Under the pieces are notes generated by a model, which searched no databases, was not told the origin of the DNA, and worked only from the letters and a program-made list of their open reading frames with translations. 64,000 bases of DNA, taken from IMG/VR virus record IMGVR_UViG_3300033146_002768, positions 98,305-162,304 of that record; one strand, 5' to 3'. Both the position numbers and the translations under genes were made by a program. The stretch comes from a virus. How positions within the stretch are numbered: position 1 is the first letter of the stretch; the number at the start of each line of letters is the position of its first letter. Shown here in pieces: positions 1 to 60,194 of the stretch.

Positions 1-2634
1 ATACAATCCAATATAAATATCAGGATCAGCAATTGTAACTTCAGTAGTTATATTTATAGTTGAGCTTGATAATTCATAATGTCCTATAACTAATCCGCCA
101 CCAGCTATATCATATACTCCACCATTATCATATTCAACCCAATCAGCAGGTACAAATGCTTGGAATAAAATATGAACAGTGCCACTTAATGGTTCAGGTA
201 CTCCAATTTGTAAATCAGCTAATGAATCATAATTACCTTGACTATCAAAGTCTTTATAATTGCCGCCAACATCTGTTGTACAATGAGCACTAGCAACTGA
301 TGAAACATCAATAATCAATAAATCAGTCACAGGGGATTTAGTTACCATAGTATCAAATCCAGCACCTGTATCCATTTGAGTTGGCCACTCTTTACCAAAG
401 TCATCAAATGCTTCTACATCAAATTGAATAATAAATTGATCATCAAATTCTATATCATCTCGAATATCCTGGCCAAAGAATATCTTAACACTTTCAACCC
501 AATAAGATGTTACATCATAAAATGCTCCAGTATCATAATCACCAACAACAGGAGTTCCACCTTCATTCCCGCCAATAATATCAACAAAATTTAATTCAAT
601 ATCAATTGATACATAATCACATATAGTTCCTATATGTAATGATTGCATATATTCACCAAGTCTAATATAGTAATCATCATCCATTTGCTCTGACGGAGGA
701 ATATCAAATGATGTGTCCATGTCCCATCTATATGCTGAGCAATAACCAGCATACCCTGGTCCAGGATATTCAATAGGTGTTGGTGGCTCTGGTGGTTCTG
801 GAGGTTTGGCAGCGTCTATTCTTTCTCTATAATCTAAATCCATTTGAGAATCAGGATCAATATCAAATACAGTTTCGAGATCATATCTATACATCAATTT
901 GCCATTATCATCATCATCGTAAATCCAGTCTAATGGCTCTGGTTCAGGTTCTGGAGGGCTTGTTGGATCATTAGCTTCTAATTCATCTAAGTAATCTTGA
1001 TCCATTTGAGTATGAGGACTTGAATCAAATGAAGCTCCAAGATCAAATCTAAATTGAGGATTACCAAATTCATCTTCATACCAGTCATCTCCAGTTGGAT
1101 CTGGTGGAGGTTCTTCTACTATAGGTTCTGGACCATCAACACCACAAAGTTGATATATCCAAGGAGTTGACCCACCAAAACCATTATTACTACAAAAATC
1201 TCCATCTAAATTTAATGGTCTAATAGCATCATGATAAAAACCTTCAATTGAAGTCATTAACCATTCATCTAAAATAACAGATTCCTCTAATGGATTTTGA
1301 ATAGCGAAAGCAGTATCCATAAAGGCAATTCTTGCTCTGTATGGTTTAAAGAAATTTATTATAGAATCTAACTCTTCTCTAAAACCAAGACCTAACATTG
1401 TTATTACTAAACTTGGAGCTTTAGAATTAATATTCAATCTAATCCAGTTATCTAATGTTCCTATTAAATAAGATACTAAATAGCTTTGATCTCCAACATT
1501 AAACCAGGAATCAATAACCGCTTTAAACTCAGGGTTCATTGTTTGTAATAAAGGTTCTGATGCTTTAATAGAATTTAAAAAGTTATTTGATAAAGGACGA
1601 GACCAGTCACTAAGTAAAGTAGCTAATCTTGTGTCTCTATCTAATCTAGAAGAAGGTCTGGTTATAAGTTGTTCATATTCATCAACTAAATCTGATAAAT
1701 GTAATGCTATAGGAGGATTTCCTTGATATTCAACAATTCCATTATAACATCCATAGTTTGTAAAAGATGTAGCAGTTGAATTTCCAAACATTTTCTCAAA
1801 AGCATATACTGCTCCTACATAAACATGTAATATAGGCAATAACATACCAAGGTTTTTTACTTGAACATTATATGGTAATTCTTGATCTAATAAATATCTA
1901 TCATATTGATCTTGAACTACTCTAAACAAAATAGTTAAAGAAATAGTAATTGTGAATAAAGAGAATATAGAACTTAAAGAATAATATGGACTCTTAGAAG
2001 GTAAATTAATTTTATTAGTTAATAATAGATTTTCTATATCAAGTTTTGATTGAAACCAGTGAGGATCTGAGCTAGTCATTTTCTCAAAGGACACATTAGA
2101 ATCAAGTAATAGAGTACTACCTGTTGCAGCAGTCCTTACTGACTCTCCTTTAAATATAATATTACCAAACTCATCCTTTTGTAGCCAATATTCAACTAAA
2201 TCAGTATCTGAAAATCCATAGTAATCTAACACATCAACTAAAGTTTCTGGTGTTCCTTTTTTCTTGTAAAAATTTACTAAATCTAAAAAGAAATTAGCTT
2301 TCGATGTTAAAGGAACTAAATCTAATCCATGAGGAAACCCAAAGCTTTTAAATAGTTCACTTAAATGTTTGTCGGGTAGTTGATGTACATCAGATGCATA
2401 TTTTTGAGTAGTAGCGATAGTTTTATGAGAAGAATACAAGTCGATTAACATAGCTCGTAATCTTCTATAATCTTCTGAGTTAAATGTTTCTTGATCTAAT
2501 ACTTGCTCAAAAAATGTAGTAGTTATTTCTTTTTCTGATGTCGCTAAAGTGGTTGTCAATTCGCTAAGACGAGAGTCAGTTGTCCCGTCTTTTAGATACT
2601 CCATTATTCTCCAAAGATCATCAATTGTAAACAC
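1..2634 (-). CDS. Tail/baseplate-like protein, C-terminus beyond window
   Basis: At least 878 residues; the C-terminus lies off the left edge. I chose the GTG at 2634 because AAGGAG sits 7 nt upstream; a TTG at 2640 is too close to it. Around residues 123-140 is NFYKKKGTPETLVDVLDYYG, which resembles the KGTP segment of P2 gpI-type tail proteins, so a baseplate role is inferred. Residues about 500-650 are rich in Pro, Glu and Asp and hold three copies of a motif like FDxxPxxQMDxDY. From about residue 800 the chain takes up the LxIGxxExLSST repeat of the two giant genes upstream. A late-type promoter lies at 2661-2677. Confidence 0.8.
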   Translation of the reverse strand, partial: MFTIDDLWRIMEYLKDGTTDSRLSELTTTLATSEKEITTTFFEQVLDQETFNSEDYRRLRAMLIDLYSSHKTIATTQKYASDVHQLPDKHLSELFKSFGFPHGLDLVPLTSKANFFLDLVNFYKKKGTPETLVDVLDYYGFSDTDLVEYWLQKDEFGNIIFKGESVRTAATGSTLLLDSNVSFEKMTSSDPHWFQSKLDIENLLLTNKINLPSKSPYYSLSSIFSLFTITISLTILFRVVQDQYDRYLLDQELPYNVQVKNLGMLLPILHVYVGAVYAFEKMFGNSTATSFTNYGCYNGIVEYQGNPPIALHLSDLVDEYEQLITRPSSRLDRDTRLATLLSDWSRPLSNNFLNSIKASEPLLQTMNPEFKAVIDSWFNVGDQSYLVSYLIGTLDNWIRLNINSKAPSLVITMLGLGFREELDSIINFFKPYRARIAFMDTAFAIQNPLEESVILDEWLMTSIEGFYHDAIRPLNLDGDFCSNNGFGGSTPWIYQLCGVDGPEPIVEEPPPDPTGDDWYEDEFGNPQFRFDLGASFDSSPHTQMDQDYLDELEANDPTSPPEPEPEPLDWIYDDDDNGKLMYRYDLETVFDIDPDSQMDLDYRERIDAAKPPEPPEPPTPIEYPGPGYAGYCSAYRWDMDTSFDIPPSEQMDDDYYIRLGEYMQSLHIGTICDYVSIDIELNFVDIIGGNEGGTPVVGDYDTGAFYDVTSYWVESVKIFFGQDIRDDIEFDDQFIIQFDVEAFDDFGKEWPTQMDTGAGFDTMVTKSPVTDLLIIDVSSVASAHCTTDVGGNYKDFDSQGNYDSLADLQIGVPEPLSGTVHILFQAFVPADWVEYDNGGVYDIAGGGLVIGHYELSSSTINITTEVTIADPDIYIGLY

Positions 2635-2660: not shown

Positions 2661-2677
2661 ATTTTATATTATGTTCC
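2661..2677 (-). promoter_or_regulatory. Late-type promoter box
   Basis: Minus strand reads GGAACATAATATAAAAT. It overlaps the stop codon of the giant gene ending at 2669 and lies about 27 nt before the GTG at 2634. The same GAACA-plus-TATAAA pattern recurs upstream of many minus-strand genes here. Confidence 0.6.
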
Positions 2678-5600
2678 TTTTGCAGACACATGTTCAAACA
2701 CAGTCTGAGTAAGATATGTTTCATAACATGTTTCAAGCACATTTAAAGGTGATGTGAATAAAGCACTATTGTCATATTTTGAATAATCTCCAGTTAATTT
2801 AAGTTCTAGATAAATATAAATCATTTTAGCTAATGTTGAATCTAATCTATCATAATTTATTCCAGCTAATGTAGCATTTTCTGGTTCAAGTCTATAAACT
2901 AATAATCTATCTAATAATACAATATCATGTGATTGAATATTATATAAATTGATATTGTAAACATCTGGGTCATCACCATCTGCTACATAATAACGAGCAG
3001 TATCTGGGTCTAACATTAATCTTGTTCTAATGGCATCTGGCCATGATATTCTATCTAATTCTTCTCTATATAAATATCTATATTGATTCTCTTCATATTC
3101 ATCATTAAATAACAACTCAATAAATGAGCCTGAATACATATGATCACTTGCTGGGAATGTTACTTGATGTTTATTTAATGATTTATGATTAACAACAAAG
3201 TGGTCATACCAATATTGTAAGTCAGCAGTAATTTTTCTATTAAATGTATCAATAGTCGCTGAGTCTAATTCAGCTTGTAATGTTATATGTGTTATTGTAA
3301 TAGATGAACTTAATGTTTCATTATATAATCCAAGGGTTATTTCTGTAGCTACTTCAACTCTTGCTACTGATGTACCTTCAAGGATTTCATCTTCACCCAA
3401 GTATAATGGATCAATAGTACATTCAGTACTAATAACAACAGTACTTGAAATAGAATTATCAGCATGTCCCATAGTTAATTCAGCATCAGTAATAGATGAC
3501 TGAACTACAATAGATTCAATAAACTTAATATCTAACCAAACATGTTCTGAATTAGATTCAACCCAAGGACTTGCTGTTGCTGTAAGAATTTCATCAATAC
3601 CGATAACTAAGTCAGATTCTGTATATGAAACAACTAAATTAATAGATGATGCTAATGATTCAGAAATACCTATAGTTAAGAAAGTATCGGCAATTGATTG
3701 AGCATGAATTGAACTAGTTAATGGTTCAACAACGCCAACGAAATCTAAGTCATATATATGTGAAGTAAATATAATTGAAGCAGATAATTTCTCAGCATAT
3801 TCAAGAACTATACCACCAAGAGAATCAGTACTAAGACTAATAGAGCTTGATAAGTCTTCACGTCTACCAGTAATATATTCACCAGATGCTGATGATGTAA
3901 CATCAATAGATGATGTAAGGTCTTCTTGTGACCCAACTATAAAATCAACTAATGGTATAATAGAGTCATTTACAATGGTTCCATGAAGAGCCATACCAAT
4001 ATATATATTATCACTTAGACTCGTATAAGAAGAGATATCAACTGTTGAGGTTAATATTTCAGTTATACCCACTATACTATGACCACTCGAATTAGTTTCA
4101 ATACTAATTGTACCTTCAAGTCCTGTTTCAAGACCAACTAGTAAATTAGCATCAGTTACTGAATGACTTGCAATTGTACTTGATAATAATTCAACTGCTC
4201 CAATTAATAAGACAACATCAGTATCAGCAACTGCTATAACATTAGAAGCAGACAATTCTTCAATTGTGCCTCTGAACATATATGGAGTTATAATCAATGA
4301 TTGAGCATGTGATTGTGAGAATAGAGCTGACTGATCTCCTATAAATAGATCAGCATTAGTTACATTACTTTGTATATGAACATCAGATCTAATTCCATAT
4401 TCTTTACCAAGATATATAAATCCATCAACAAATGATTCAATGAAACCACCATGAGTTAATTCAACATCAGTACCAAGCACTAATTCAGCTACATCAACAT
4501 TTGTTGTGATAATAGAAGTATGTGTAAGTTCTGTAACTGTACCAACTGATAAATCAACATTAACTATTGATTGAACTGCTACATCACTAGTTATTGAATA
4601 GATAACTTCTAATGATACATCAACATCACTGCTGATTGTATTATCACCATAGAAATCTATTGCACCTATTACTAATCCATCATTTTCAACAACTGATATA
4701 ATATCTGCTGTTCCGCTTTCAAAATGTTCAGCAACACCCAATGTCAGAGTTGACCATACTTCAGTTTCAGCAAATGCATTACCAGAGTAATCTGATCTTG
4801 TCATATGTGAAGTAGTAGAGGTTCTAACAAATATAGTACTTGAAAGGTCTGTTACAGTACCAGTACTTAAATTAGCAACAGCAATACTTTCAACATTTCC
4901 TGTTGCTTCAAGAATTTCATCAGCACCTAATGTTAATTCTGCAACTGAATCTGCTGTAATACAGAAAGCAACACTATTATAGTAACCATTGATAACTCTC
5001 AAGAATGTATTAGAAACATTTGAAATAGCTTTGTTCCATGGAGACCAAGGATCTGATGCTAAATGAACATCGTATATAATTGCTGGTATAGTTATAAATG
5101 GATTAACATTACAAATAGCACTTAATTCTTCTACAACACCCAATGTTAATTCAACATTAACATTTGAAGTTATATCATCTTGAGCTGATACTAATTCAAT
5201 TCTACCATCAACTATATTACCAGTTAAATCACTTTCAATATAAGCAGTACCTGTTAAATATTCTGGTCCAGTTAATCTTGAATCGCTAACAACTGATTGA
5301 ATGCTAATATCTGATGAAACATAAATAACAGGAGAAATTAAATCAGCATCTGTTATAGAAATTGAGAAATTAGTTGATGATACAAGTTCAGTATAACCTA
5401 TGTATAGAACAGCATCATTTGTTAATGATTGAATAGTTGAAGTACCTGTAAGTTCATCAGGAAGTCCGAGTGTAAGTTCAGCAGTATTTACATTTGATTC
5501 TGCTACATGTGTTGTAGTCCATACTTCAATTATACCATTAATATTTAGAACTGTTGCTGTTGCTGATGATGAAACTTTGTTCCATGGAGAAATATTGTCT

Positions 5601-8600
5601 GAACGTAAGTATATTGTAGGACTTGTTAAATTAGCAAATGCAAATGATCTCGCTGTTTGGATACTTCCTGATAATTCAGTAACATCACCGATAATTAAGT
5701 TAGAACTAGCAATTGATTCAATATCAATAGTAGAACTTAAGTTGGTAATCTCTCCTAAGTATAAAGTATCAGCAGAAACTATTGTAGTAATGTCAGTTGT
5801 TGCAGTAAGAGTAAGAGGTTTCTCCATACTACCTACAATATCACAAACAATCGCACAAGTTGATGTTAATTCTTCTACTCCAACCTCACCAATAGTCATT
5901 TTAGCTGCAAATGTTACTGACCATGCTAAAATACTTGCAGATAATTCCTCTGATGAACCTGTATCAAGACTTATAGCAGATACCTGTGTAGTAATAGACA
6001 TTGAACTACCACTAATTTCAACTCTACCAACAATTAATTGACCTGTTGAAGCAGTTGATATTACATCTTGTTGAGCTTCAAGTATCTCAAGAGTTCCAGG
6101 AATATTTAAGAACCCAGCAAATCCAAATTCTATATCAAGAGTTGAAGATAATTCCTCCACATGACCAATTATTAAATCTGCATCAGTTACAGAATTTGAA
6201 GCAACAGTTGATGATAATAAATCAACAGCACCAAGAATTAACTCTGCATCTGCTACATTAGAAACAACAGGAGCATCATTCTCTCCTATAAATAATTCAA
6301 TTTTGCCCATTGTTAATTCGGCATTCACTGTATTACTAACTATATTATTAGTAGAATTAAGTATATCAGGAACATCTAATAATGTAGATGCCACAATTGA
6401 AATAGTGAAATTAATTGATGATGCAACTTCAGTAATACCTGTACTCAATTCACTTGCTTCAGATGATGTTATAATATTGTCAGTTGATTCTAATATTTCA
6501 CTATCATCTGTTAGATTAGGATCTATACTAACTATACAATTTATAGTAGATGATAATACTTCCAAATTTCCTGGTACATATAACCATGTTCCTGTCGCTT
6601 TAGATTCAATATCAATAGAAGCAGTAATTGGAACAGGACCGCCAATAACAAGGTCAATAGTATTTAGAACTAAATGACCAACTACAATAGTTGATGATAA
6701 ATTCTCTTGTCCACCAAGATTTAATACATCTTCTACACTTGGTTGAATATGAATTGTTGCACTTAATACTTCTGGAGAACCAAGAGTTAACTCTGCTGGT
6801 GGAAAACTAAGAGTTGATGCATTTGTTGAAGAAAATAATTCATCAATACCTATAATCATATCAGGATTTATTGAAACATTACTTTGAATCAATGTTGAAC
6901 CTGTAACTGGTTCAGGTAGACCAAATGAAATAGGAGCTGGAGGAGTACTTAATGTAGAAATTGAAGTTGACGCTAACAACTCAACAACACCAACTATTAA
7001 GTTAGTATCATTAACAACACTTGTGATTGTTGTTGAATGAGATAATGGATTATCAATACCTAATGTTAATTCTGATGAAACATTTGAATGAATGTATTCT
7101 AAATGAGATAATTCTTCAACAACACCTAATGTTAGAGTTGCATCAGTAATTGAAATACTAAAGTTAGATGTAGCTAATAATTCAGCTTTACCAATAGTTA
7201 ATAATGATACAGAGTATGATATAATTCCAACATTACCTGATAATGGAGTATCAGCACCTAATTCTAACTCAGCATCAACATTAGAGTTTACTAAGTGAGT
7301 TGCCTCTAATATTTCATCGACTCCGATTGTCAATTCACCTGGTAGGTGAGCTTGTGTAATAGATGTAGCACCTAATACCTCTAAGATACCTAAACCTAAA
7401 TTAGAAGTTATTACTGATTGAATATATGGATGAGATGATAACTCTTCTCCTATACCTATCACTAAATCGGGTAGATTTATAACAGATACAATAGGAGTAG
7501 AATGAGCTAATTGTTCATCATTACCTAAGTATAAATCAGTTCCGACTATTGATACTATATCAATTGAAGCATCTAATTGTTCAGCAATACCAAGTAATAA
7601 GAAAGTTTCAACACTACTAACAATAATAACACCAGTAGATGCAAGAGATTCTGGTTGACCCAGAATAATATCAAGCACAACATCTGATACAGTAACAACA
7701 GTTGAAGATATTAATTCAATAACACCAACTACTAATTGGGAATCAACAATACTAACTATATTAATAGAAGCTGATAATGTTTCATCAATACCTAAAGATA
7801 ATAATCCTGTTATTGTTCCGCCTTCAATAGTAGCAACAACTGTACCACTTAAATCAACCTCAACACCAAGAATTAATTCAGATGTAACAACTGATTGTAA
7901 TATAGATGTTGATTCTAATATTTCAAGTTTACCTGTTGTTAATGAAGCATCAACTTGTGTATTACCTAAAATATAATATGTAGCTGATAATGATTCTTCT
8001 ATCCCAATAATTAAACCTGTGTCATGTACATTTGAATTAATGATATCTGAATGTTCTAACACTTCAATGATACCAAGAGTTAATAAACTATACTGTCCAC
8101 CTTTTCTTATAAAACTAATAACATTATCAGTAGCAGATAATATTTCAGTTGTACCAAATATTAATATACCACTTGTTTGTGTCTCAACATTAATAGTACT
8201 TGATAATGGTTCAATTAACCCTAAGTATAATTCAGCATCTGTTACAGAATTTGTGATAGTTGTTGAAGATAATAACTCTGATATACCAGTAGTTAAAACT
8301 CCAGCAGCAGCGGTACTAACTATACTAGAAGTAGATAATAATACTTCTTCGATTCCAAGTGTTAATATACTATAAGATTCAGTAGTTATATTAATTACTG
8401 AACTTGTTAATTCTTCTGGAAGTCCAGTTGTAATAGTTGATTCTGTATTTGTAACAATAAAGTTCTCGGGTGGATCATAATTTTCTCCAAATAAACCTAT
8501 AAATCCTGTAGGTATTATAGTATGACTTAAATTAACATCAACCCCTAAATATAATGATACAAGAGTAGTAACAGAAATTATATTATTTGTAACACTCAAA

Positions 8601-10408
8601 TTTTCTGTAACGCCTAAAGTTAATGTACCTAATGTATCACTTACAATTGTTGATATACCAGATAGTTCAGTTTCTTCACCAAGAGTTAATTCAGCAACTG
8701 CAACACTATTCTGTATTCCAACAACAGTCATCATCTCCCAAATACCAAATGAGAATATACCTTCAATATTTGATTGAATATGTAGAGATCCACTTATATC
8801 AACATCTTCACCTAATGATAATACTGCATAAGTATTAGAGATCGCAGACCCTGTTGCTGTTTGAATTTCATTGCCGCCTATATCTACTTCAGCATCAGTG
8901 ATAGTTAAACTAAGAATTGTACTTGATAATAGTTCAATGAATCCAATAGTTAATACAGAATTTTGAACTATCTCTGTGTTAACAGTAGCAGATAATTGTT
9001 CTGTTGTCCCCATCAATATAAATGCACTTGAAGAAGATTCTACATTAATAGATGATGATAACTCAGTTTCTTCACCAAGCATTAAACTAGCATCTGTTAC
9101 TGAATGAGAAGCTATAACAACTGATAAAAATTCAGTTAAACCTAAAACTAAATTGGAATCAACTGTTGAAACAATAATTGTTGAATGCTCAAGGATCTCA
9201 GCTACTCCAATATCAAGTGGTGTCTGATACACAAGTGATGTTGTATAAGAAGTGTGTCCTAATAATTCAACATGTCCTATTGTTAAATTACTCCATTCTC
9301 CACCTTTTCTAATAAAACTTTGGAAATGAGTTGATCCTGATAATGGTTCAGTGATACCAAATGTTAAGAATACACTCACTGATGATTCAGCTAATACAGT
9401 AGCGCTTAATTCTTCTGGAACACCGATATCAATAGTTGAACCAAGTATTGTTGAATTTATAGGTAATGTACTACCAAGTATTTCTATTATACCAACTGTA
9501 AATAAATTACCAACTACAGAAACAATATCTATTGATGAACTTAATGGTTCAGGTTCACCTAATGATAACACAGGAGGTACAACAACTGAATTAATTAATT
9601 GAGTATATGTTAATGCTTCATCAGCACCTAAATCTAATCCTACATCAGGTGCAACACTAATAGAAATAGTGGTTGAGGATAATAACTCATTTATCCCAAC
9701 AGTTAATAAACTAACACCATAACTATTAGAATTAATAGTAGATGATAAATCTTCAGCAACACCTAAAGTTAAAGTTGAATCTGACTCACTAGTAATTAAA
9801 GTACTACCAAATATTATTTCTTCTTTGCCCAGAATTATAAATCCTGATACAACAGGTTCTATTAAAGAGGTGGCACTTAATTCTTCTGGTATACCTATTA
9901 CTAATTGAGGAACTGATACCTCTGATTGAGCATGAGGATTCGCTAGATGATAATAAGTTGTTCCATAAAATGGATCACCAATTACTGCTGAAGTATATAT
10001 AATAGTACTTGAAACTAATTCAATGATTCCTATAGTAAGAAGAGGTTCTACATTAGAAACAATATTAACAGTACCTGATATTCCCTCAGCAACACCAAAT
10101 GTTATAAATGCATCTACGCTTGTGACTATTCCATTACTAACAGTTAATCCTTCTATTTCACCAATTTCTAAACTTACAATTCCACTTACAGATGATGTTG
10201 GTATTGTAGCCGCTATAACCTCCACGATACCTAAACTTAATAATACTTGAACGTTTGAAGATGGAGTTGAAATACCAGCAAGTACTTCAGCGGCGCCAAA
10301 AGTTAATTCAGCACCACTATCAGTACTAACATTTGAATTTACTATTGCTGGTTCAAATGAATCAACCCACTTTACATCAGACGTATTTTTAAATCCAACA
10401 TCTTTCAT
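2669..10408 (-). CDS. Giant repeat protein A, probable tail fibre or adhesin (2579 aa)
   Basis: The protein opens with FKNTSDVKW (residues 6-14), shared with giant B, and is then almost entirely tandem units of about 22-23 residues of the form LxLGxxExLSSTxxIxSxV. From the length I estimate about 100 units. The alternating hydrophobic pattern suggests beta-strands, perhaps a solenoid or trimeric fibre (inference). Residues about 2385-2579 are a non-repeat C-terminal domain rich in Tyr and Leu. The start is ATG with a weak AGGA upstream, only 32 bp from giant B, so co-transcription is likely. Its position among tail genes supports a structural role. I cannot assign it to a named family. Confidence 0.9.
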   Translation of the reverse strand: MKDVGFKNTSDVKWVDSFEPAIVNSNVSTDSGAELTFGAAEVLAGISTPSSNVQVLLSLGIVEVIAATIPTSSVSGIVSLEIGEIEGLTVSNGIVTSVDAFITFGVAEGISGTVNIVSNVEPLLTIGIIELVSSTIIYTSAVIGDPFYGTTYYHLANPHAQSEVSVPQLVIGIPEELSATSLIEPVVSGFIILGKEEIIFGSTLITSESDSTLTLGVAEDLSSTINSNSYGVSLLTVGINELLSSTTISISVAPDVGLDLGADEALTYTQLINSVVVPPVLSLGEPEPLSSSIDIVSVVGNLFTVGIIEILGSTLPINSTILGSTIDIGVPEELSATVLAESSVSVFLTFGITEPLSGSTHFQSFIRKGGEWSNLTIGHVELLGHTSYTTSLVYQTPLDIGVAEILEHSTIIVSTVDSNLVLGLTEFLSVVIASHSVTDASLMLGEETELSSSINVESSSSAFILMGTTEQLSATVNTEIVQNSVLTIGFIELLSSTILSLTITDAEVDIGGNEIQTATGSAISNTYAVLSLGEDVDISGSLHIQSNIEGIFSFGIWEMMTVVGIQNSVAVAELTLGEETELSGISTIVSDTLGTLTLGVTENLSVTNNIISVTTLVSLYLGVDVNLSHTIIPTGFIGLFGENYDPPENFIVTNTESTITTGLPEELTSSVINITTESYSILTLGIEEVLLSTSSIVSTAAAGVLTTGISELLSSTTITNSVTDAELYLGLIEPLSSTINVETQTSGILIFGTTEILSATDNVISFIRKGGQYSLLTLGIIEVLEHSDIINSNVHDTGLIIGIEESLSATYYILGNTQVDASLTTGKLEILESTSILQSVVTSELILGVEVDLSGTVVATIEGGTITGLLSLGIDETLSASINIVSIVDSQLVVGVIELISSTVVTVSDVVLDIILGQPESLASTGVIIVSSVETFLLLGIAEQLDASIDIVSIVGTDLYLGNDEQLAHSTPIVSVINLPDLVIGIGEELSSHPYIQSVITSNLGLGILEVLGATSITQAHLPGELTIGVDEILEATHLVNSNVDAELELGADTPLSGNVGIISYSVSLLTIGKAELLATSNFSISITDATLTLGVVEELSHLEYIHSNVSSELTLGIDNPLSHSTTITSVVNDTNLIVGVVELLASTSISTLSTPPAPISFGLPEPVTGSTLIQSNVSINPDMIIGIDELFSSTNASTLSFPPAELTLGSPEVLSATIHIQPSVEDVLNLGGQENLSSTIVVGHLVLNTIDLVIGGPVPITASIDIESKATGTWLYVPGNLEVLSSTINCIVSIDPNLTDDSEILESTDNIITSSEASELSTGITEVASSINFTISIVASTLLDVPDILNSTNNIVSNTVNAELTMGKIELFIGENDAPVVSNVADAELILGAVDLLSSTVASNSVTDADLIIGHVEELSSTLDIEFGFAGFLNIPGTLEILEAQQDVISTASTGQLIVGRVEISGSSMSITTQVSAISLDTGSSEELSASILAWSVTFAAKMTIGEVGVEELTSTCAIVCDIVGSMEKPLTLTATTDITTIVSADTLYLGEITNLSSTIDIESIASSNLIIGDVTELSGSIQTARSFAFANLTSPTIYLRSDNISPWNKVSSSATATVLNINGIIEVWTTTHVAESNVNTAELTLGLPDELTGTSTIQSLTNDAVLYIGYTELVSSTNFSISITDADLISPVIYVSSDISIQSVVSDSRLTGPEYLTGTAYIESDLTGNIVDGRIELVSAQDDITSNVNVELTLGVVEELSAICNVNPFITIPAIIYDVHLASDPWSPWNKAISNVSNTFLRVINGYYNSVAFCITADSVAELTLGADEILEATGNVESIAVANLSTGTVTDLSSTIFVRTSTTSHMTRSDYSGNAFAETEVWSTLTLGVAEHFESGTADIISVVENDGLVIGAIDFYGDNTISSDVDVSLEVIYSITSDVAVQSIVNVDLSVGTVTELTHTSIITTNVDVAELVLGTDVELTHGGFIESFVDGFIYLGKEYGIRSDVHIQSNVTNADLFIGDQSALFSQSHAQSLIITPYMFRGTIEELSASNVIAVADTDVVLLIGAVELLSSTIASHSVTDANLLVGLETGLEGTISIETNSSGHSIVGITEILTSTVDISSYTSLSDNIYIGMALHGTIVNDSIIPLVDFIVGSQEDLTSSIDVTSSASGEYITGRREDLSSSISLSTDSLGGIVLEYAEKLSASIIFTSHIYDLDFVGVVEPLTSSIHAQSIADTFLTIGISESLASSINLVVSYTESDLVIGIDEILTATASPWVESNSEHVWLDIKFIESIVVQSSITDAELTMGHADNSISSTVVISTECTIDPLYLGEDEILEGTSVARVEVATEITLGLYNETLSSSITITHITLQAELDSATIDTFNRKITADLQYWYDHFVVNHKSLNKHQVTFPASDHMYSGSFIELLFNDEYEENQYRYLYREELDRISWPDAIRTRLMLDPDTARYYVADGDDPDVYNINLYNIQSHDIVLLDRLLVYRLEPENATLAGINYDRLDSTLAKMIYIYLELKLTGDYSKYDNSALFTSPLNVLETCYETYLTQTVFEHVSAKGT

Positions 10409-10440
10409 ATGTTATGTCCTAAAGTAAGTTATGATTTGAA

Positions 10441-13400
10441 TTATTTTGTAAATAAACTACCTCTGTTAGCATATTCATGATTAAATTTCAGAGCACATGG
10501 AGTTCTTCCTAATAATGGAGCAATGACCATTTCACATGATGCTCCATTTCCATTCGCTGTTGTTGATTCAAGAATTTCTTCAATCCCTGCATAAATTTGT
10601 CCTATTGTCATAGAAGTAATACTTCTTGATGCTGACATAACTTCTATTAAACCAAATACTAATTCACCTGCTGTAACAGATGGAGTAATAACTGTTGATG
10701 CAAGCAATTCATCCTCACCAGTACTTAAGAATGCATTAGAACTTGTTGATGCAAAAGAGTTAGTATAAGCAGGAACAGTAGCATCTAACATTTCTATCTC
10801 ACCAATTACAACAACTGGAGATATATATCCTGCATGTTGATCTGTTACTCTTATTCTATAAATATCATATTGTGTAGTATTTGAGATATTAAATGTTCTT
10901 TTTTGTCCTTCGCCCCAATTTTGTTGGTTATTTACTATATCTAAAACAACCCAACCAGTTGCTACACTATAACCACTAAAAGTCCAATCTTCTGGAGCAT
11001 AATATTCATTATAATTTCTATCAGAAGCAACAGTATATTTAGTAATAACTGTAGGACTATCAAATTCATATTGTATCCACTGAGGTAGAGTTTCATTAGT
11101 ATCTGATCCCCATTTTGAATTAACAATATCATCAAAAGCATTTCTTGGATCACTACTTCCACCTTCTGCACCTTCATATGATGACGCAGATACATTTGCT
11201 GAATTAGTACATAAATCTTGAGGTTCTGGAGCCCATAAATCATGTTCTAAGTATTCACCGATACCTGTAGATAATGAAGCATCAGCAACTGAATGAGAAG
11301 CAATTGCTGTAGCAAGAACTTCAATAATACCCATAATCAATGGCTCACCATCAACTATTGAAACAACTGATGCTCCATCAGTTACTGCTACATATTCATA
11401 AAGTCCTAATGTTAATTCAGGAGTATGAATTTGAGACCAAATCATTTTAAATGCTGATGCGGTTTCAATAACACCAGTATCTAATGTTGAAGCATCACCC
11501 TCAGTAGTAATAACAACTCCAGCAGAACATGTTTCAGCAGCACCAGGAATATCTAAATCTCCAAGAGTTGTATTTTCTACAGCTATTGCAGTTGCTGATA
11601 ATGGTTCATCAACACCAAGAGTTATTTCTGATGTAGTTACTGCTATACCAAATCCTAATGTTGCTAATACTTCCACCAGTCCCATAGTTATACTAGCATC
11701 AGATGTAGTAGTAACATTTATAGTTGAAGTTAAATCTTCTCCGATACCAAGATTCAATAAACTTACAGGAACAATACTTTGAGCAACTTCTAATGAATGA
11801 ACATAATCTTCATTCCAAGATTTAAATGCAATCTCAGATATACGTAGATTAATTGAATCTTCACCTTCTGTAAATACAAATCTATAATATCTATAATCAT
11901 TTAAATTGACTATATCTACTACTTTCGTAGTACTATCAGGTGTCCATGATTGAGTATCAAGAATGTCCCAACTAGTAGCACCATCATCTGAACCTTCAAA
12001 TGTCCATTTAGTTGGTCTATAATCAGCTTGTTTAAAACTAAGTATATATTTTTGAATTGCTACGTCATTACCATCACCAAAGTCCCATCTCAATATATAA
12101 GGACTAAATGGATCTGCATCATAACTCGCTATCCATTCACTTGCTGCTGTATCATCAAATGCTAATGCCGGTTCATTGCCAAATTCATAATGACTAGCAA
12201 ATGCAGCTCCGCCAATTTCAGAAGTTTGATCAGCAGTATAAGTAGGACTTGATGGAGCAGTTAATGCTGTATGAGCTAATGGTTCACCTAAACCAAGAGT
12301 TAAGTTCGCTGCTACATTTGATTGACCTATTTGAGCACTACCAAGTACTTCAGATATACCAAGATCTAATAGTGATGTACTAGTAGTTGAAATAGGACCG
12401 CTAGTCGATGTCATCATTTCCATTACACCGATAGTTAAATCTTGAGAAGTAACTGACTGAGCACTAATAGAATTAATAGTTTGACTATCATAGAACATCT
12501 CAGTATTAGAATCAACATCAAAGTTAGAAGTCCAAAGAGCAGAACCTTTTGTTATTCTAAAATTATCAATATATCCATCTATACTACCACTTTGTCCACC
12601 GCCTATAAAAATAGGATCTGAATAATTATGGTTTTGATTATCAATAAAACCACTACTACCTATACCATTTATATATATTTTGGTAGTACCGCTATTTCTA
12701 ACAATAGCTATATGATTCCACTCACCTGCATTTAGAGATTCAGTTGTTAAGAAAGAATTACCACCTGGCCAACTACCAAATAAATAAATGGTTCCATTTG
12801 TATTAATATAAATACCCCATTTTCTAGTAGTATGATCTCCACTAAATGATGCATTTCTGGCACATAAAAATTGAGCTATCCAAGTATCTTTATATACTGC
12901 TAAATCAATAGTATAATCACCTGTTCCAAAATCCCAATCAGGACTATCTGGAACACTTAAATAATCACCATCACCATCAAGGTATGTACTTGAATTTCCT
13001 CTATACTTTTTACTGCTAGTTATAGCAGCGCCACCATGAGCAGTAATAGTATGAGTTCCATTCTCATCTTCAATAACACTCTCACTATCAATAAATAGAT
13101 CTCCAGTATTAGCTGCTGATATTGACCATCTAGTATGACTAATTCCTGTGGCAATACCCATTGTCGCTTCAGCTATTGCATAACTAACTGGACCATTTGT
13201 AGCACTTAAATCTTCGACAACACCTAAATTTATAAATGAATCAATAGATACTTGCCCACCATTTGTAGCACTTAATGGTTCATCAACACCAAGAGTAATT
13301 GAAGCATCTGCTGTTGAAGCTGTAATACTCGTAGAAGCTACTAACTCACTAACACCAAATATAATAGTTGATGCTTCAGCATTTGATTGAACTAAATATG

Positions 13401-16400
13401 AAGCACTTAAAGGTTCTGAACCACCTAATATAATTGAAGCATCATGTTCTGTTGAAGGATTAATAGTAGAACTTAATGGTTCAACATGACCGATAGTTAA
13501 ATCAGCATCTGATGATGAAGTAAATGTAGTACTAACACTTGCAGTTTCAACTATACCAAAACTTAAATTAGTAGTAGATGTAGTAGTTAATGGAGATGTT
13601 GCACTTAATGTTTCTCCAATACCTAATATTAATTGAGCATAAGTAACACTTTGTGTTGATCTTGATGCAGCAACAAATTCATTTTCACCAAGATTCATTT
13701 GAGCAGTACCAACACTTCCTAAAGTAGAAGTTGCTGATAATGGTTCATCAACACCAAAGCTAATGAATGCACTAGTAGATGATTGAGCAGTAATGCTAGA
13801 TGTTAACTCTTCTGTAATACCAAGAATCAAATCAGAATCAGTTACTGAATTTGAAGCAACTGTTGAAGAAACAACTTCAAGTATACCAAGTGTTAATAAT
13901 GAATTACTAGTAGTTGATATAACACCTTGAGTTGCTGCAACTACTTCACTAATCCCCATAGTTAAATCTTGTGTTGTTGTATTCTCAAATGAAATAGATG
14001 AACTCAATGGTTCACTAATACCAAGAGTTAATACAGCATCAGCAACTGAATGAGTAGCTATTGTTGATGAAGTTGATTCAACTATACCAGTTGTTAATTG
14101 ACCTGAAATAGAAGTCCATGATACACATTCATCAGTTAATACTTCTGTATGTCCAATTAATAGATCACTTGTATCTGTTGTTGTTATAGTAACTGTAGAC
14201 TCTAATGGAACTGGTCCACCCATAGTTAATTCAGCATCATCAACAACACTTTGAGCAACATGAACTGTACCAAGAATTTCATCAACACCAAGGATCATTA
14301 ATCCTACAGTAGTTGAAACAGCATAAGGATCAAGTGGACCTGATGTAAATTCATATAATGTATGACCTAATGTTTCTGGAACACCTAATGTTAATGTTGC
14401 ATCAACACTTAAAGTTAGAGCATTATCAACATCAGCTAATACTTCTGTAACACCTAAGTCAAGTAGTGAAGTACTTGTAGTTGATATAATTGCTTGTGTT
14501 GAAGATAAGTCCTCAGCAATACCTAATAATAATGTAGATAAAGTTGATGAAGTTACTATACCTCCAGTAGCAGTCATAGGTTCTGGTTGTCCAAAAATTG
14601 GAGCTAATATGTCTGCCTCAATAGTAATAGCAGCAGTAGCACTTAATATTTCATTAACACCTATTAGTAATAAACCAACTGCATTACTTCCTATTGGATA
14701 ATCTTGAGGACTATCATATAGATCTTCCCAAGCACCTTCATAACCAGTAGGAATAATTGTTCTTGATAATACTTCATCTTGACCAAAATCAATACTCCAA
14801 GTTGATACACTAGTTGTTACTTGAGCTCCAGTAGTACATGCTAAAATCTCAGCATTACCAACTTGGATTTCTCCTGCAGCTGATGCTGATGTATAAGCTA
14901 TAGTTGAAGCTAATAATTCAGTAAGACCTAATGTTAGAACACCAGTAATAGTTCCACCTTCAATAGTAGCAGGTGCTGTACCAGTTAATACTTCTGTAAT
15001 ACCAAGAATTATAATACCATTAGAAGAACTTACTGTATTAATAGTACCTGATAATGGAGTAGGAGCACCAAGAGATAACTCAGCTACTGCATTACCAACA
15101 ACTTCTTGAGTTGCAGTAAGAATTTCAGATTCACCAAGATATAATGAAGCAGTAGCAGTACCAGTAATATCTTTGGCTACATATTCATAAGGATCAAAAT
15201 CAGCAGTTGTATATCTAGAAGTACCAATGCTAATTCTAATAGCATCAATAAAAATAGAATTATTACCTGCTTCAATAATTTCACCAAACACAACAGTACT
15301 ATCAAATAAATAACCAGAATCAGCAAATACTACATGTGTAGAACTTGAATAAGTAAAGCTTTCTTGTTTACCATCAATTCTAACATATACATTATCATTA
15401 ATTCTAAATATAGTATAGTATTTCCATTCATTTAATAAAGCAGACTTAGGAATATTAAAAGATATATTGCCAGAAGTTCCAGCTCCATCATTTAATTCTA
15501 ATAACACTGTCATAATTGTAGCATTGTAACCAACAACACTCAATCTTTGATAAGCACTTCCTTTTGTTTGTTTGAATAAATAATATCCTTCAGTAACAGG
15601 ATCAAAATCACCCCCAAGATATGCACCAAATTCAATACAATAATCTTCATCGGAGAAATCTAATGAAGCATTATCTATATTACTAAGCATGCCATATCCT
15701 GTAGAAGGAGCAAGAGCATAACCTTCAAATAAAGAATAAGAACTTGTTATATAAGCAGTACCACCTATAACCATATCATGATCGTTACCACTTTCATCTA
15801 CTAATGATCCATCTCTAAAATTGAATAATGCTGTAGTAAATTCGTCTGTTACAAATGCAGGGTTATTTATAATATGAGTTAATTGTTCATCAACACCAAG
15901 AATTAATGTAGCAGTAACATCTGAAGTTGTTGCTCTTACACTTGATAGTAATTCTGCTTCACCAAGTATAGCAACACCATCAACTGATATAGTAGGCGAT
16001 GCACTAGCTTCTAATACTTCTGTAATGCCTAAGTATAAGAATGCACTACTTGCTGTCTCAAGATCAATAGATGCAGTAATTGGAGTTTCAGCACCAAGAG
16101 TTAATACTGAATCAAGAACTGTTGAAACAATTGCTCCAGTTGATGCTGTTGTTTCAACAATACCTAAAGTAATAGATGAAGTAACAGGAATAACTAAAGC
16201 AATAGTTGAACTTAAAGTTTCTGAAATACCTAAAGTGATATCAGCAGATAATGAAGCAACAGAGTAAGGTTCTGAATAAGAATCTTCTCTTGTGATTGCT
16301 TCCATATATTCTAATTCATCAATATTTAAATCTGTACCAGCTGAAAGAGCTGATAATCTAATATATCTATAACTAGTTAAATTCTTAAAGCTATATGTTC

Positions 16401-17574
16401 TTTTTTCTCCAGAAGCAAATGTTGCTTGTCCTGTTTTAGAATCTAATGTATCCCAATCACTATCATTATTTGATCCATATAGAACCCAAGTAATAGGAAA
16501 GTTAGCAGTAGCAGCATCAACTGGAGCTTGAATTGTATATTGCTCTATTTGTTTTTCATTACCATCACCAAAATCATATTTTGCCCAACCACCTTGAGAA
16601 GGACAACTCCAAGCTTCATCAAGACCGCCAGTAATATTACTAAATAGATCAGAAGCAACTCTTTCAGGATCTTGAGTAGCACTAACAGAAGCTGTACCAC
16701 TACCAGTTACATCATTACCGAATGTTAATGGATCACCAAGAATTACAGCATCAATAGTATGAGCTAATGCTTCTGGTACACCAAAATCTATTGTTGTGCC
16801 TGTAACAGTTGAGCTAATAGGATCAGTAGAACCAAGAACCTCAGCAATACCAAGACCTAATAAAGATGTATTAGTAGTAGTTATTACAACACCAGTTGTT
16901 AATGGAGTAGCAGCACCTAATTCTAAATTGCCTTCTATTGTTTCATCAATATTAGCATGAGCAGATGCAGTCATAGGTTCGAGGATACCTAATTGTAACC
17001 ATGCATCAGATGTTGAAGCATTAACTGAAGTTGAACCAAGTATTTCTAATGTTCCAAGATCTAATAAACCATTAACATCTGATTGAACTGATGCAGATGA
17101 AGTCATTAACTCGGAATAACCTAAAGTTAATAATGGACCTGCTGTAACAGATGTAGTTGTAATAGTTGAAGAAACAACTTCAACAATACCAAGACTTAAT
17201 TCAGCTCCCACGCTTGTTGTTGAGCTATTAGTTGTATCTAGTTGTTCAGCTCCACCAAAATTCATGAATGATGATGTAGTTGATTCTATTATGCCAGTAG
17301 CAGTCATAGATTCATCAACACCGAGAGTTAACTCAGCAGATGGAACGCTTAAAGTTGCTATTTCTGCAGATGCTAATACTTCTACTACCCCTAAAGCTAA
17401 CAGCGGACCAATGGTAGAAACCACATTGATATTTGCTGACAATATTTCACTTCCGCCCAAGGTAAGACTAGCATTTACACCACTTCCGCCATCGACTGCT
17501 GATTGAATTAAGAAACTATCAAAATCAGATGTCCATTTTACGTCAGCTGTATTCGTAAAGATTGTATCAGCCAT
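10441..17574 (-). CDS. Giant repeat protein B with discoidin-like and LamG-like domains (2377 aa)
   Basis: The N-terminus FTNTADVKW matches giant A, and most of the chain is the same LxLGxxExLSST repeat. Inserted in the array are three regions resembling F5/8 type C (discoidin) domains, about residues 290-435, 1780-1930 and 2120-2265, with patterns such as YDFGDGN and YRYIRLS. Two resemble concanavalin/LamG domains, about residues 580-795 and 1490-1690; the second has DFGTGDYTID and YIDNFRITKG. Such domains bind glycans in other proteins, so a receptor-binding fibre is inferred. The C-terminus has no repeat (GRTPCALKFNHEYANRGSLF). ATG at 17574 has AGGAG upstream. Confidence 0.9.
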   Translation of the reverse strand: MADTIFTNTADVKWTSDFDSFLIQSAVDGGSGVNASLTLGGSEILSANINVVSTIGPLLALGVVEVLASAEIATLSVPSAELTLGVDESMTATGIIESTTSSFMNFGGAEQLDTTNSSTTSVGAELSLGIVEVVSSTITTTSVTAGPLLTLGYSELMTSSASVQSDVNGLLDLGTLEILGSTSVNASTSDAWLQLGILEPMTASAHANIDETIEGNLELGAATPLTTGVVITTTNTSLLGLGIAEVLGSTDPISSTVTGTTIDFGVPEALAHTIDAVILGDPLTFGNDVTGSGTASVSATQDPERVASDLFSNITGGLDEAWSCPSQGGWAKYDFGDGNEKQIEQYTIQAPVDAATANFPITWVLYGSNNDSDWDTLDSKTGQATFASGEKRTYSFKNLTSYRYIRLSALSAGTDLNIDELEYMEAITREDSYSEPYSVASLSADITLGISETLSSTIALVIPVTSSITLGIVETTASTGAIVSTVLDSVLTLGAETPITASIDLETASSAFLYLGITEVLEASASPTISVDGVAILGEAELLSSVRATTSDVTATLILGVDEQLTHIINNPAFVTDEFTTALFNFRDGSLVDESGNDHDMVIGGTAYITSSYSLFEGYALAPSTGYGMLSNIDNASLDFSDEDYCIEFGAYLGGDFDPVTEGYYLFKQTKGSAYQRLSVVGYNATIMTVLLELNDGAGTSGNISFNIPKSALLNEWKYYTIFRINDNVYVRIDGKQESFTYSSSTHVVFADSGYLFDSTVVFGEIIEAGNNSIFIDAIRISIGTSRYTTADFDPYEYVAKDITGTATASLYLGESEILTATQEVVGNAVAELSLGAPTPLSGTINTVSSSNGIIILGITEVLTGTAPATIEGGTITGVLTLGLTELLASTIAYTSASAAGEIQVGNAEILACTTGAQVTTSVSTWSIDFGQDEVLSRTIIPTGYEGAWEDLYDSPQDYPIGSNAVGLLLIGVNEILSATAAITIEADILAPIFGQPEPMTATGGIVTSSTLSTLLLGIAEDLSSTQAIISTTSTSLLDLGVTEVLADVDNALTLSVDATLTLGVPETLGHTLYEFTSGPLDPYAVSTTVGLMILGVDEILGTVHVAQSVVDDAELTMGGPVPLESTVTITTTDTSDLLIGHTEVLTDECVSWTSISGQLTTGIVESTSSTIATHSVADAVLTLGISEPLSSSISFENTTTQDLTMGISEVVAATQGVISTTSNSLLTLGILEVVSSTVASNSVTDSDLILGITEELTSSITAQSSTSAFISFGVDEPLSATSTLGSVGTAQMNLGENEFVAASRSTQSVTYAQLILGIGETLSATSPLTTTSTTNLSFGIVETASVSTTFTSSSDADLTIGHVEPLSSTINPSTEHDASIILGGSEPLSASYLVQSNAEASTIIFGVSELVASTSITASTADASITLGVDEPLSATNGGQVSIDSFINLGVVEDLSATNGPVSYAIAEATMGIATGISHTRWSISAANTGDLFIDSESVIEDENGTHTITAHGGAAITSSKKYRGNSSTYLDGDGDYLSVPDSPDWDFGTGDYTIDLAVYKDTWIAQFLCARNASFSGDHTTRKWGIYINTNGTIYLFGSWPGGNSFLTTESLNAGEWNHIAIVRNSGTTKIYINGIGSSGFIDNQNHNYSDPIFIGGGQSGSIDGYIDNFRITKGSALWTSNFDVDSNTEMFYDSQTINSISAQSVTSQDLTIGVMEMMTSTSGPISTTSTSLLDLGISEVLGSAQIGQSNVAANLTLGLGEPLAHTALTAPSSPTYTADQTSEIGGAAFASHYEFGNEPALAFDDTAASEWIASYDADPFSPYILRWDFGDGNDVAIQKYILSFKQADYRPTKWTFEGSDDGATSWDILDTQSWTPDSTTKVVDIVNLNDYRYYRFVFTEGEDSINLRISEIAFKSWNEDYVHSLEVAQSIVPVSLLNLGIGEDLTSTINVTTTSDASITMGLVEVLATLGFGIAVTTSEITLGVDEPLSATAIAVENTTLGDLDIPGAAETCSAGVVITTEGDASTLDTGVIETASAFKMIWSQIHTPELTLGLYEYVAVTDGASVVSIVDGEPLIMGIIEVLATAIASHSVADASLSTGIGEYLEHDLWAPEPQDLCTNSANVSASSYEGAEGGSSDPRNAFDDIVNSKWGSDTNETLPQWIQYEFDSPTVITKYTVASDRNYNEYYAPEDWTFSGYSVATGWVVLDIVNNQQNWGEGQKRTFNISNTTQYDIYRIRVTDQHAGYISPVVVIGEIEMLDATVPAYTNSFASTSSNAFLSTGEDELLASTVITPSVTAGELVFGLIEVMSASRSITSMTIGQIYAGIEEILESTTANGNGASCEMVIAPLLGRTPCALKFNHEYANRGSLFTK

Positions 17575-17587: not shown

Positions 17588-17968
17588 CTATCTACCAACA
17601 GAATATCCGCATCTACTGTTATTTTTTATAAAATTATTTGTTTGGAATGGTAGGTCTTTTTTAAGTGTTTCTGTAAATACAGTAAACGAGTGGAGGTACG
17701 GTCTATTATCTACCATAGGAGGACCATGGATTTGTATTGAAGTTCCAATACAGTTATTGATAGAAATAGAATCGTAGTCAGATCTAATAACTATTATTAA
17801 ATCTGACTCGATTACTATAGTATTTACAGGTTGAACTTTTAATGTCACAGTTGCTGTTGCACCAAATGACATTATTAGAGCAAACCCAGAAGGTGTGCTC
17901 ACTGACTTAACGGAAGAACCTCCAGACATTGAAAGTCTGTTAGTTTTTCTAATAATTAAGTCAGTCAT
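17588..17968 (-). CDS. Unrecognised small structural-region protein (126 aa)
   Basis: I do not recognise it. It starts with ATG 5 nt after GGAGG and ends in TAG 13 bp before giant B. The sequence is Ser/Thr/Val-rich with alternating hydrophobic residues up to about residue 75, consistent with beta structure, and then a more polar C-terminus (NNFIKNNSRCGYSVG). Its place between fibre genes, in the same direction and tightly spaced, suggests a small virion or fibre-associated protein. Confidence 0.7.
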   Translation of the reverse strand: MTDLIIRKTNRLSMSGGSSVKSVSTPSGFALIMSFGATATVTLKVQPVNTIVIESDLIIVIRSDYDSISINNCIGTSIQIHGPPMVDNRPYLHSFTVFTETLKKDLPFQTNNFIKNNSRCGYSVGR

Positions 17969-22535: not shown

Positions 22536-23543
22536 TTATTTTCCTAGTATTGTTCTTCCTTTAATTAAATCATCATTACCACTTAACTGAGGTCGTTGAG
22601 AATATCCACCAGCATTCAATATTGAAATAATCTCAGCATGAATAGTAGCCCAATTAGCATTAGGATTTTCTTTCATTGCTCTCATTAGACTATAAGATAA
22701 AGCACCTTGCCATATTCCTTTAATATAAGCATCAGCAGAAGTCTGGTCATCTCTACATCCTGATAACAATACATGATCTTGATCTTTCTCTAATGCTTTA
22801 CCTATCTTATTAACTGGAAGACTTAAGTTATTACTTCTTATTAAAATATCAATAGGAGGTTTAATATATCTCTCTTTTGGAGTATGATCTGATAGTTCAG
22901 TGAATGATAAACTTTTTGACATTGAACCACTATGACATGCATCACAAACAAATGTTAAGAATACACCATCAGCTTTATTTTTGAATAGTCCGCTAATTAA
23001 ATCATCAGTGAATGGATCATCCCAATCTAAATCGCTTGGGCATATTATCTCATCTAACTGATCTTCAAGTTCATCATTATTTCTATCTCTTATTTGTGAA
23101 CCATGACCAGAGTAATGTAGGAATAGTTCATCACCAGATATGTCATGACTTAATAACCATTCAATCCTTTCAAATATATTATCACTAGTAGCTCTAAAGT
23201 CAGTAAGCATTCTAATATTATCTGGAGGAAAGTCATAGTCCTCAGTTAATATCTTATACATTTGCTCAGCATCATTAACACAACCATTTAAGTTGGCATT
23301 AAGAGTTGGATCATATTTATTAATCCCAATAATTACTGCAAACTTAGAAGCTTTACGTTTGGTAGTATCAACTAAATCTTCAAGTTCATCTGATATATCA
23401 TCATCTAACAATTCTTCTATCTCTTCATCACTAATGAAATCATCTGGTTCAACATTAGCAGTTGTTTCATCAATAACCTCTGGTGGTATACTTGCTGGTT
23501 TAATTCCAAACAAACTAAATAACCAAGTCCAAAAAGCTTTCAT
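22536..23543 (-). CDS. Metacaspase-like cysteine protease (335 aa)
   Basis: A peptidase C14 domain covers residues about 66-335: KFAVIIGINKYD, NGCVNDAEQM, the catalytic His in HYSGHGSQ (His147) and the catalytic Cys in CDACHSGS (Cys203). Both catalytic residues are present. Metacaspases cut after Arg or Lys. Residues 1-12 are hydrophobic (FWTWLFSLFG) and may insert in a membrane; residues 25-60 are strongly acidic. I chose ATG at 23543, 9 nt after AAGGAG and just past the HAD stop; an earlier in-frame ATG would overlap the HAD gene by 50 nt. Phage-borne metacaspases are unusual; the target is unknown. Confidence 0.85.
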   Translation of the reverse strand: MKAFWTWLFSLFGIKPASIPPEVIDETTANVEPDDFISDEEIEELLDDDISDELEDLVDTTKRKASKFAVIIGINKYDPTLNANLNGCVNDAEQMYKILTEDYDFPPDNIRMLTDFRATSDNIFERIEWLLSHDISGDELFLHYSGHGSQIRDRNNDELEDQLDEIICPSDLDWDDPFTDDLISGLFKNKADGVFLTFVCDACHSGSMSKSLSFTELSDHTPKERYIKPPIDILIRSNNLSLPVNKIGKALEKDQDHVLLSGCRDDQTSADAYIKGIWQGALSYSLMRAMKENPNANWATIHAEIISILNAGGYSQRPQLSGNDDLIKGRTILGK

Positions 23544-23544
23544 A

Positions 23545-23937
23545 TTATTCATCTCCTTCATATATTTGTTGAAGTTTAAATGTTGCTTCATCAACCCAAT
23601 CTTCTAATATACTTTCATCTCCTATTATTTTGCCAGTATTCTTTTCAACTTGAATAGCTCTATCGTCATAGAATCTAGCCATGTCAGGAGTTTTAATATT
23701 AGATATTTCTAAATCTTCAAGACCATGTTTCTTTAACCATTCTACTATCTCTGGTATATTATCAGGATCATCTGCTCTTGCTGTAAAAATAACAATTCTA
23801 ATTCCTTCATCAATCCACATCTTCACTCTTTCCATCATTGATGGAATAACTGGACCAACTGATCTATCATTCTTCCATCCACTATACGATGCTAAAGTAC
23901 CATCAAGATCAACAGCATAACATATATCATTATTCAT
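23545..23937 (-). CDS. HAD-family phosphatase (130 aa)
   Basis: HAD motifs are complete: AVDLDGTLA (nucleophile Asp10, Asp12), IVIFTARADD for motif II, a Lys in NIKTPDMARFYDD, and the DDRA acidic pair. The family dephosphorylates small phosphate esters or the 3'-phosphate of nucleic acids; which applies here cannot be decided. It is short, with essentially no cap domain, which favours a large or polymeric substrate (inference). ATG follows AAGGAG. Its stop codon is one base before the metacaspase start. Confidence 0.82.
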   Translation of the reverse strand: MNNDICYAVDLDGTLASYSGWKNDRSVGPVIPSMMERVKMWIDEGIRIVIFTARADDPDNIPEIVEWLKKHGLEDLEISNIKTPDMARFYDDRAIQVEKNTGKIIGDESILEDWVDEATFKLQQIYEGDE

Positions 23938-29810: not shown

Positions 29811-30243
29811 GTCAATAAACCAAACAACTTAACTCAGTTCATTTCTCATTATACTTATTTATCAAGATGTCGGATATAGTTTTAAAAAAAGAAAGGACTA
29901 GACACTAACTCACTATCAGTATATCATCTATTCGTATTAATCACATACAAGAAAACAACTAATCTAATAAGAAACATACTAATAACAATAAGATTTAAAC
30001 TAAACATAATCAATATTCAATCCAATTATATTAAAAGAGTTATAATTATTATTTAAAGAGTATTATTTAAAGAGTATTATTAATAAGAGTATAAGGTATT
30101 AAGGATATAATAACATAAGGTCATTATGATTTCAAGGGGGATGTTTATTGTAATAGTATGTATGAAGTATAGTTAGTGGGTTATAAGCAGGTTGTAAGTA
30201 AGTTGAATATAGATTATGTTTTCATTTGTATAGTAACTGAGCT

Positions 30244-30337
30244 GAGTATATGTATAGATGAGGGAAGTATATGTATAGATGATGGAAGTATATGTATAGA
30301 TGATGGAAGTATATGTATAGATGATGGAAGTAAGAGG
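30244..30337 (+). repeat. 21-bp tandem repeat, four copies
   Basis: Unit AAGTATATGTATAGATGATGG. Copies two to four are identical (30265-30327), the first (30244-30264) differs at two or three bases, and a truncated unit with a spaced partial copy follows. The period is a multiple of three but I see no convincing gene here. Confidence 0.9.
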
Positions 30338-30455
30338 AAGTATATGTCTTGAGTTCGTTTCTCAACGTCCATTTTATAGTTCTCACGGTCTAGTCCGAGT
30401 CCCAAATAAAATTCCGGACGCCATCCAACCAACAATCCATATTAATCTAAAACAT

Positions 30456-36177: not shown

Positions 36178-36189
36178 GTTCACTCCTTT

Positions 36190-37713: not shown

Positions 37714-37742
37714 TTAAAGAGCAGTCAGAGTGCTCTTTTTTG
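37714..37742. terminator. Bidirectional rho-independent terminator
   Basis: AAAGAGCA / TGCTCTTT stem, 7-nt loop, followed by T-run. Lies between convergent genes and overlaps the end of the minus gene at 37725. Confidence 0.85.
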
Positions 37743-59461: not shown

Positions 59462-59471
59462 AATATCTTCC

Positions 59472-60191: not shown

Positions 60192-60194
60192 TAT

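Follow-up and report, generated by a model that had tools for sequence, protein, structure and literature searches.

Two adjoining genes of a large virus, here termed A and B, encode proteins of 2579 and 2377 amino acids that are assembled largely from short repeats, and the same unit reappears in the C-terminal part of the product of the next gene, C. What would such lengthy arrays be for, and where in the virion would they reside? The window analysed here, a stretch of 64,000 nucleotides, forms part of a 207-kb virus record (IMGVR_UViG_3300033146_002768) from an uncultured large tailed phage. On the basis of sequence comparison we propose, with a probability of roughly 0.7, that this phage has a contractile tail whose baseplate bears long fibres of beta structure, made of A, B and the tail of C. 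The proposal draws upon the observed gene order, the repeat, the homology of a domain at the end of A (the anchor domain), the optional arrays and the variable lectin-type modules. The principal features, in positions of the window, are as follows.

1 to 2634, minus strand: gene C, 1298 aa in all, its N-terminal part lying in the window from GTG 2634 and the remainder continuing to G000:C1:97042 (window joined to flank)
1 to 222, minus strand: first diverged units of C, which has 13 in the whole gene (unit profile)
1195 to 2634, minus strand: conserved N-terminal ~470-480 aa of C, probably baseplate-type (P2 gpI-like; phrog_20751, Tail_P2_I, hhalign)
2669 to 10408, minus strand: gene A, 2579 aa, comprising an N-terminal signature, a ~100-unit array and a conserved C-terminal anchor domain (open reading frame, unit profile)
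2672 to 3241, minus strand: anchor domain of A, residues 2390-2579, predicted mostly helical (hmmsearch, alignment, AlphaFold2)
3284 to 10315, minus strand: array of 89 above-cut-off units in A, spanning residues 32-2375 and mostly 22 or 23 residues apart (unit profile)
10316 to 10408, minus strand: N-terminal signature of A, residues 1-31, in common with B (sequence comparison)
10441 to 17574, minus strand: gene B, 2377 aa, comprising the signature, 60 units and five inserted domains (open reading frame, Pfam, unit profile)
10540 to 17475, minus strand: interrupted repeat array of B, residues 34-2345 (unit profile)
17588 to 17968, minus strand: 126-aa protein of no family, whose gene immediately precedes B or A in relatives as well (sequence comparison)
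40486 to 40878, minus strand: 130-aa ORF with one recognisable unit, outside the tail module (profile search of the whole record)

Composition and age of the repeat

An iterated 22-column profile detected 162 units above its cut-off (89 for A, 60 for B, 13 for C), compared with mean counts of 1.06, 0.36 and 0.04, respectively, in residue-shuffled controls (~1.5 altogether). The original prediction of two neighbouring giant repeat proteins is thereby borne out: both reading frames are as it described, on the minus strand, and together hold about 150 units. Its figure of about 100 repeats in A is a fair one, given 89 units above the cut-off and an array of ~2,340 residues which, divided by 22.5, would accommodate ~103. 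The counting and alignment of all units that it called for gave a spacing of mostly 22 or 23 residues (41 intervals of 22, 25 of 23 and 5 of 24 in A; 32 of 22 and 14 of 23 in B) and the consensus (D)-A-E-L-T-L-G-I-x-E-x-L-S-S-T-I-N-I-T-S-x-V, in which Gly-7 is conserved in 98% of units, Glu-10 in 81%, Leu-12 in 73% and Leu-4 in 70%. The shared N-terminal signature reads M-x-D-x-x-F-x-N-x-x-D-V-K-W in A and B and is slightly changed in relatives, and the units expected in the C-terminal part of C are present there in diverged form. Throughout the record, the profile found no units outside A, B, C and the 130-aa ORF.

The array is degenerate, paralogous units sharing a mean pairwise identity of just 27%, and neighbouring units are no closer to one another than distant pairs. 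Orthologous units, occupying the matching position in another phage, are 42-53% identical. This excess over the paralogous value, together with the absence of any fall-off with distance, indicates an old array without recent re-copying; each unit is, by these comparisons, an old part kept individually under constraint. That the array is stable, with units maintained individually since before the phages split, suggests that array length or unit identity matters.

The repeat had been reported as belonging to no recognised family, and this judgement holds for Pfam, PHROGs, NCBIfam and PDB sequences, where only scattered weak chance matches arose. A search of A against 50,697 phage records gave no match. 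When IMG/VR was scanned with a three-unit degenerate DNA pattern, true units occurred, among the matches listed, only in contigs of this phage group and in one 105-kb contig (3300017989_002952) carrying the same array; a stricter DNA pattern run against 84,980 prokaryote species genomes returned 31 matches, none of which contained a real unit. No paper describing a 22-23-residue repeat of this kind was found in the literature. As judged from sequence, the repeat family is new to the libraries searched.

Genomic setting, gene C and the anchor domain

Genes A, B and C lie on the minus strand, separated by 32-34 nt in an operon-like arrangement. The GTG start of C at 2634 is preceded by AAGGAG, and ~1.26 kb of the gene extends beyond the window edge. 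Further to the left are genes for a sheath (PF17482), a tube-like protein, a hub-like protein (T4_baseplate) and wedge proteins of the gp25 and gp6/J types, from which it follows that the phage is contractile-tailed. A and B thus have one of the marks of tail-fibre genes, a position within the tail/baseplate module, and a matching order recurs in four related contigs (L001-L004). The order in related contigs is the 126-aa gene, B, A, C, a 276-aa gene and then the sheath gene; B is missing in L004. Relatives of the sheath occur in phiR1-37, PaBG and AR9/PBS1.

The N-terminal part of C is 68-75% identical in close relatives and 31-56% farther out. The family phrog_20751 ('virion structural protein') is matched by 22 of the 33 C relatives, and Tail_P2_I (PF09684) weakly by six of them, with a best E-value of 0.0045. 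An hhalign comparison of the C family with g234 of Yersinia phage phiR1-37, itself annotated as a virion structural protein, gave an E-value of 1.6e-6; the sheaths of the two phages are related too, and the genes upstream of g234 are short hypotheticals that include no giant repeat protein. In P2-type phages, P2 gpI and other Tail_P2_I proteins hold the tail fibres. A K-G-T-P-x-x-L motif is, by inspection, common to these proteins and C, but C is far larger, bears repeats and gave no significant match in a direct profile comparison with P2 gpI (E 0.13) or in a profile search of PDB sequences. A gpI-like baseplate role for C is likely on this sequence evidence. The C-terminal array ranges from 0 to 30 units across the clade, and in three distant homologues (L109, L110 and L112) a kelch-like array of ~44-47 residues per unit, recognised by inspection, takes its place; repeat modules of more than one kind seem to be tolerated at this C-terminal site. 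The stretch of C that separates the baseplate domain from the repeats (window ~222-1150, minus strand) contains Pro-rich linkers as well as a repeated segment with F-D-x-x-P-x-x-Q-M-D-x-D-Y.

The C-terminal ~190 residues of A are non-repetitive and 61-74% identical among close relatives. A profile of this domain, applied with hmmsearch, recovered a free-standing protein of 199-253 aa at 23 loci of more distant phages (L111, L114, L067 and L082 among them), at 22 of which its gene lies directly upstream of a C homologue, the next gene starting within a few bases. These homologues consist of the same domain without the repeat extension, and a PHROG search gave them no name or function. In a midpoint-rooted tree of the domain, all repeat-bearing versions group together among the free-standing ones with a support of 0.995, and on this tree they are one derived clade. 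Because the domain is free-standing in relatives, beside the C homologue, and because its repeat-bearing forms make up one clade, A is a conserved tail-module protein that gained a huge N-terminal array (~2,390 residues). The anchor-profile search found the extension to be missing from most of the wider clade. Where it is present, the anchor is retained while the array varies in size, from 21 units in the 1,065-aa A of L106, through 71 in L004, to 85-92 in the other complete versions.

AlphaFold2 predicts the anchor domain to be mainly helical (32 sequences; pLDDT 82.8, pTM 0.80). Foldseek comparison of this model with PDB and BFVD gave no match with E < 0.001, and a profile search of PDB sequences gave no significant match; the best VIA Z-score, 4.6, was to unrelated helical proteins, which is no proof of a new fold. 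From gene order we infer that the anchor is located at the baseplate. The end domain of A corresponds to a conserved protein, hitherto without a name, which a large group of uncultured phages encodes, in nearly all cases, beside a gpI-like protein; it serves as a practical marker for the likely site of fibre attachment in such phages.

Inserted domains, fold and function of the arrays

The repeat had been described as running throughout B. It does so to the extent of 60 units, but the array is interrupted at five places by insertions other than the repeat, and Pfam identifies four of these as F5/8C or laminin-G:

16333 to 16668, minus strand: F5/8 type C (discoidin-like) domain, residues 303-414 (Pfam PF00754; whole-protein E-value 2.2e-17)
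15175 to 15882, minus strand: insertion at residues ~565-800, laminin-G-like by inspection (unit gap 554 to 808; below the Pfam cut-off)
12550 to 12978, minus strand: Laminin_G_3 / concanavalin-A-like lectin domain, residues 1533-1675 (Pfam PF13385, 3.6e-13)
11785 to 12246, minus strand: F5/8C-like insertion, residues ~1777-1930 (one of three PF00754 stretches; bounds from the unit gap)
10786 to 11190, minus strand: F5/8C-like domain, residues 2129-2263 (phrog_17517 'tail protein', 6.1e-48)

B thus contains carbohydrate-type (host-binding) domains, F5/8C and Laminin_G_3, that exceed the Pfam cut-offs; in A alone, searches of Pfam, PHROGs and NCBIfam recognised no binding domain. The PHROG search also matched B to tail proteins. 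Relatives of B bear other sets, laminin-G only in L001 and five laminin-G stretches with F5/8C and DUF7483 in L002. Proteins that contact the host typically show such exchange of glycan-binding modules. The top match of B in the phage collection, a protein of phage DSL-LC04, has multiple laminin-G domains without the repeat and was set aside.

The units look beta-type. Hydrophobic residues cluster at the even positions (mean Kyte-Doolittle value +1.25 against -0.14), and the composition is acidic, with 12% Asp+Glu and 0.8% Lys+Arg. A structure prediction of several units had been suggested as a check; AlphaFold2, given eight units of B and an alignment of 24 natural segments, returned an all-beta model with a strand every ~11 residues, and its pLDDT of 44.7 and pTM of 0.33 leave a regular fold unconfirmed. 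Such a low-confidence monomer model would be expected of a beta fibre dependent on partner chains, and a failed monomer prediction weighs little in either direction. Triple beta-spiral shafts, of the adenovirus fibre type, are trimers of tandem beta repeats with a period of ~15 residues. Like them, the units stand in tandem, look beta-type, keep one glycine almost invariant and alternate in hydrophobicity; they differ in their period of 22-23 residues and in giving no PDB sequence match. By inference, some 100 units would span ~50 nm as a solenoid (~0.48 nm per coil) or 150-200 nm as an extended multimeric shaft.

The choice between these two architectures leads to the strongest alternative, which we consider to have perhaps one chance in four: the repeats would form a monomeric beta-solenoid with one ~22-residue coil per unit, like bacterial adhesin stalks, making A a ~50 nm rod and not a multimeric shaft. 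A length of 22-23 residues is typical of a solenoid coil, and the all-beta prediction with its strand every ~11 residues, as well as the regular alternation across the unit, would suit such a rod. However, AlphaFold2 is usually good at monomeric solenoids and here yielded a pLDDT of 45 and a pTM of 0.33 from the 24-row alignment, and the repeat matches no Pfam solenoid family and no PDB sequence.

A more doubtful alternative would make the arrays mainly spacers or shields round the tail, long acidic brushes, poor in Lys and Arg, by which the phage would stay suspended or be masked, and not receptor-binding fibres. The charge bias of the units and the want in A of a binding domain known to the three family libraries are in keeping with brushes, but the adjoining B, which carries the same repeat and signature, has lectin-type domains that vary between phages, the usual mark of host range.

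Tape measures are the least credible reading. By inspection, the likely tape measure of this phage is a 1442-aa Lys-rich protein encoded downstream of the large terminase (L014:14580-18908, plus strand, equivalent to G000:C1:72884-77212). That A and B set tail length as tape-measure-like proteins is very improbable: they are very long, repeat-built and located in the tail module, and A has 2579 aa in both the window and L001, but the composition is beta-type with almost no Lys or Arg and not helical, as is the low-confidence all-beta prediction, the length of A shifts by hundreds of residues among relatives whose sheaths are ~80% identical, the extension is lacking from most of the clade, and the Lys-rich protein is the better candidate. 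A search of the record with phrog_52, a presumed tape measure model, gave no match, which says little.

Of the original suggestion of exceptionally long fibres or tape-like assemblies, the second half therefore finds no support. Fibres are the best-supported explanation, resting on the tail/baseplate module, the anchor of A, the baseplate-type C and the glycan-binding-type domains of B. In the proposed fibre, the C-terminal domain of A and the N-terminal domain of C would seat the structure on the baseplate, and the arrays would serve as long shafts or spacers, their units adopting a repetitive beta fold that probably requires a multimer. The F5/8C and laminin-G modules of B would bind host-surface or matrix polysaccharide, and host contact would then position the tail for contraction. 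In a fuller version, for which we judge the odds about even, an undescribed beta-fibre repeat was fused by one clade of large phages onto baseplate-module proteins, on the N-terminal side of A and the C-terminal side of C, to give fibres of ~50-200 nm, a host-contact organ that replaces or accompanies ordinary tail fibres.

Related systems and other genes of the window

The Bacillus jumbo myoviruses 0305phi8-36 and Bace-11 possess curly or corkscrew fibres near the baseplate, ~187 nm in length and 220-230 nm in Bace-11 (PMC4113786). The likeness lies in a jumbo myovirus with very long fibres joined near the baseplate, the fibres of the present phage being a proposal. The two cases differ in that the proposed fibre genes of 0305phi8-36 flank the head module, whereas those described here sit in the baseplate module, and in that comparison of A with the 50,697 phage records found no sequence relation. 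By analogy, A, B and C may work like the curly-fibre system; membership in it is not claimed, for want of such a relation in the search.

A new repeat, proposed to build long protein fibres, is here tied to a fixed genomic place. The related phages also supply a natural size series, running from phages that lack the array through 21, then 34 or more, then 71, to 85-92 units, and this would allow the length of the fibres to be set against the host and the shape of the virion.

Several other genes of the window, all on the minus strand, merit description. Just past the tail genes is a caspase-like protease (22536-23594; Peptidase_C14, 6.4e-30), unusual cargo for a phage. Two short ORFs (30214-30435 and 35731-36183) contain exact internal peptide repeats (LPSSIHI; SELPNEEQADTNTSSGDEQAPE). 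A cytidylyltransferase (37725-38168) and a calcineurin-like phosphoesterase, LpxH-like by eye (40882-41568), suggest envelope or sugar-nucleotide chemistry. The phage also encodes a response-regulator receiver protein (49907-50782; 2.2e-09) and a papain-family cysteine protease (51962-52975; 4.5e-18). Lastly, the region 53390-63208 encodes several radical-SAM-type proteins (two were tested and both matched) and two carbamoyltransferases (up to 7.7e-55), and resembles a small island devoted to biosynthesis or modification.
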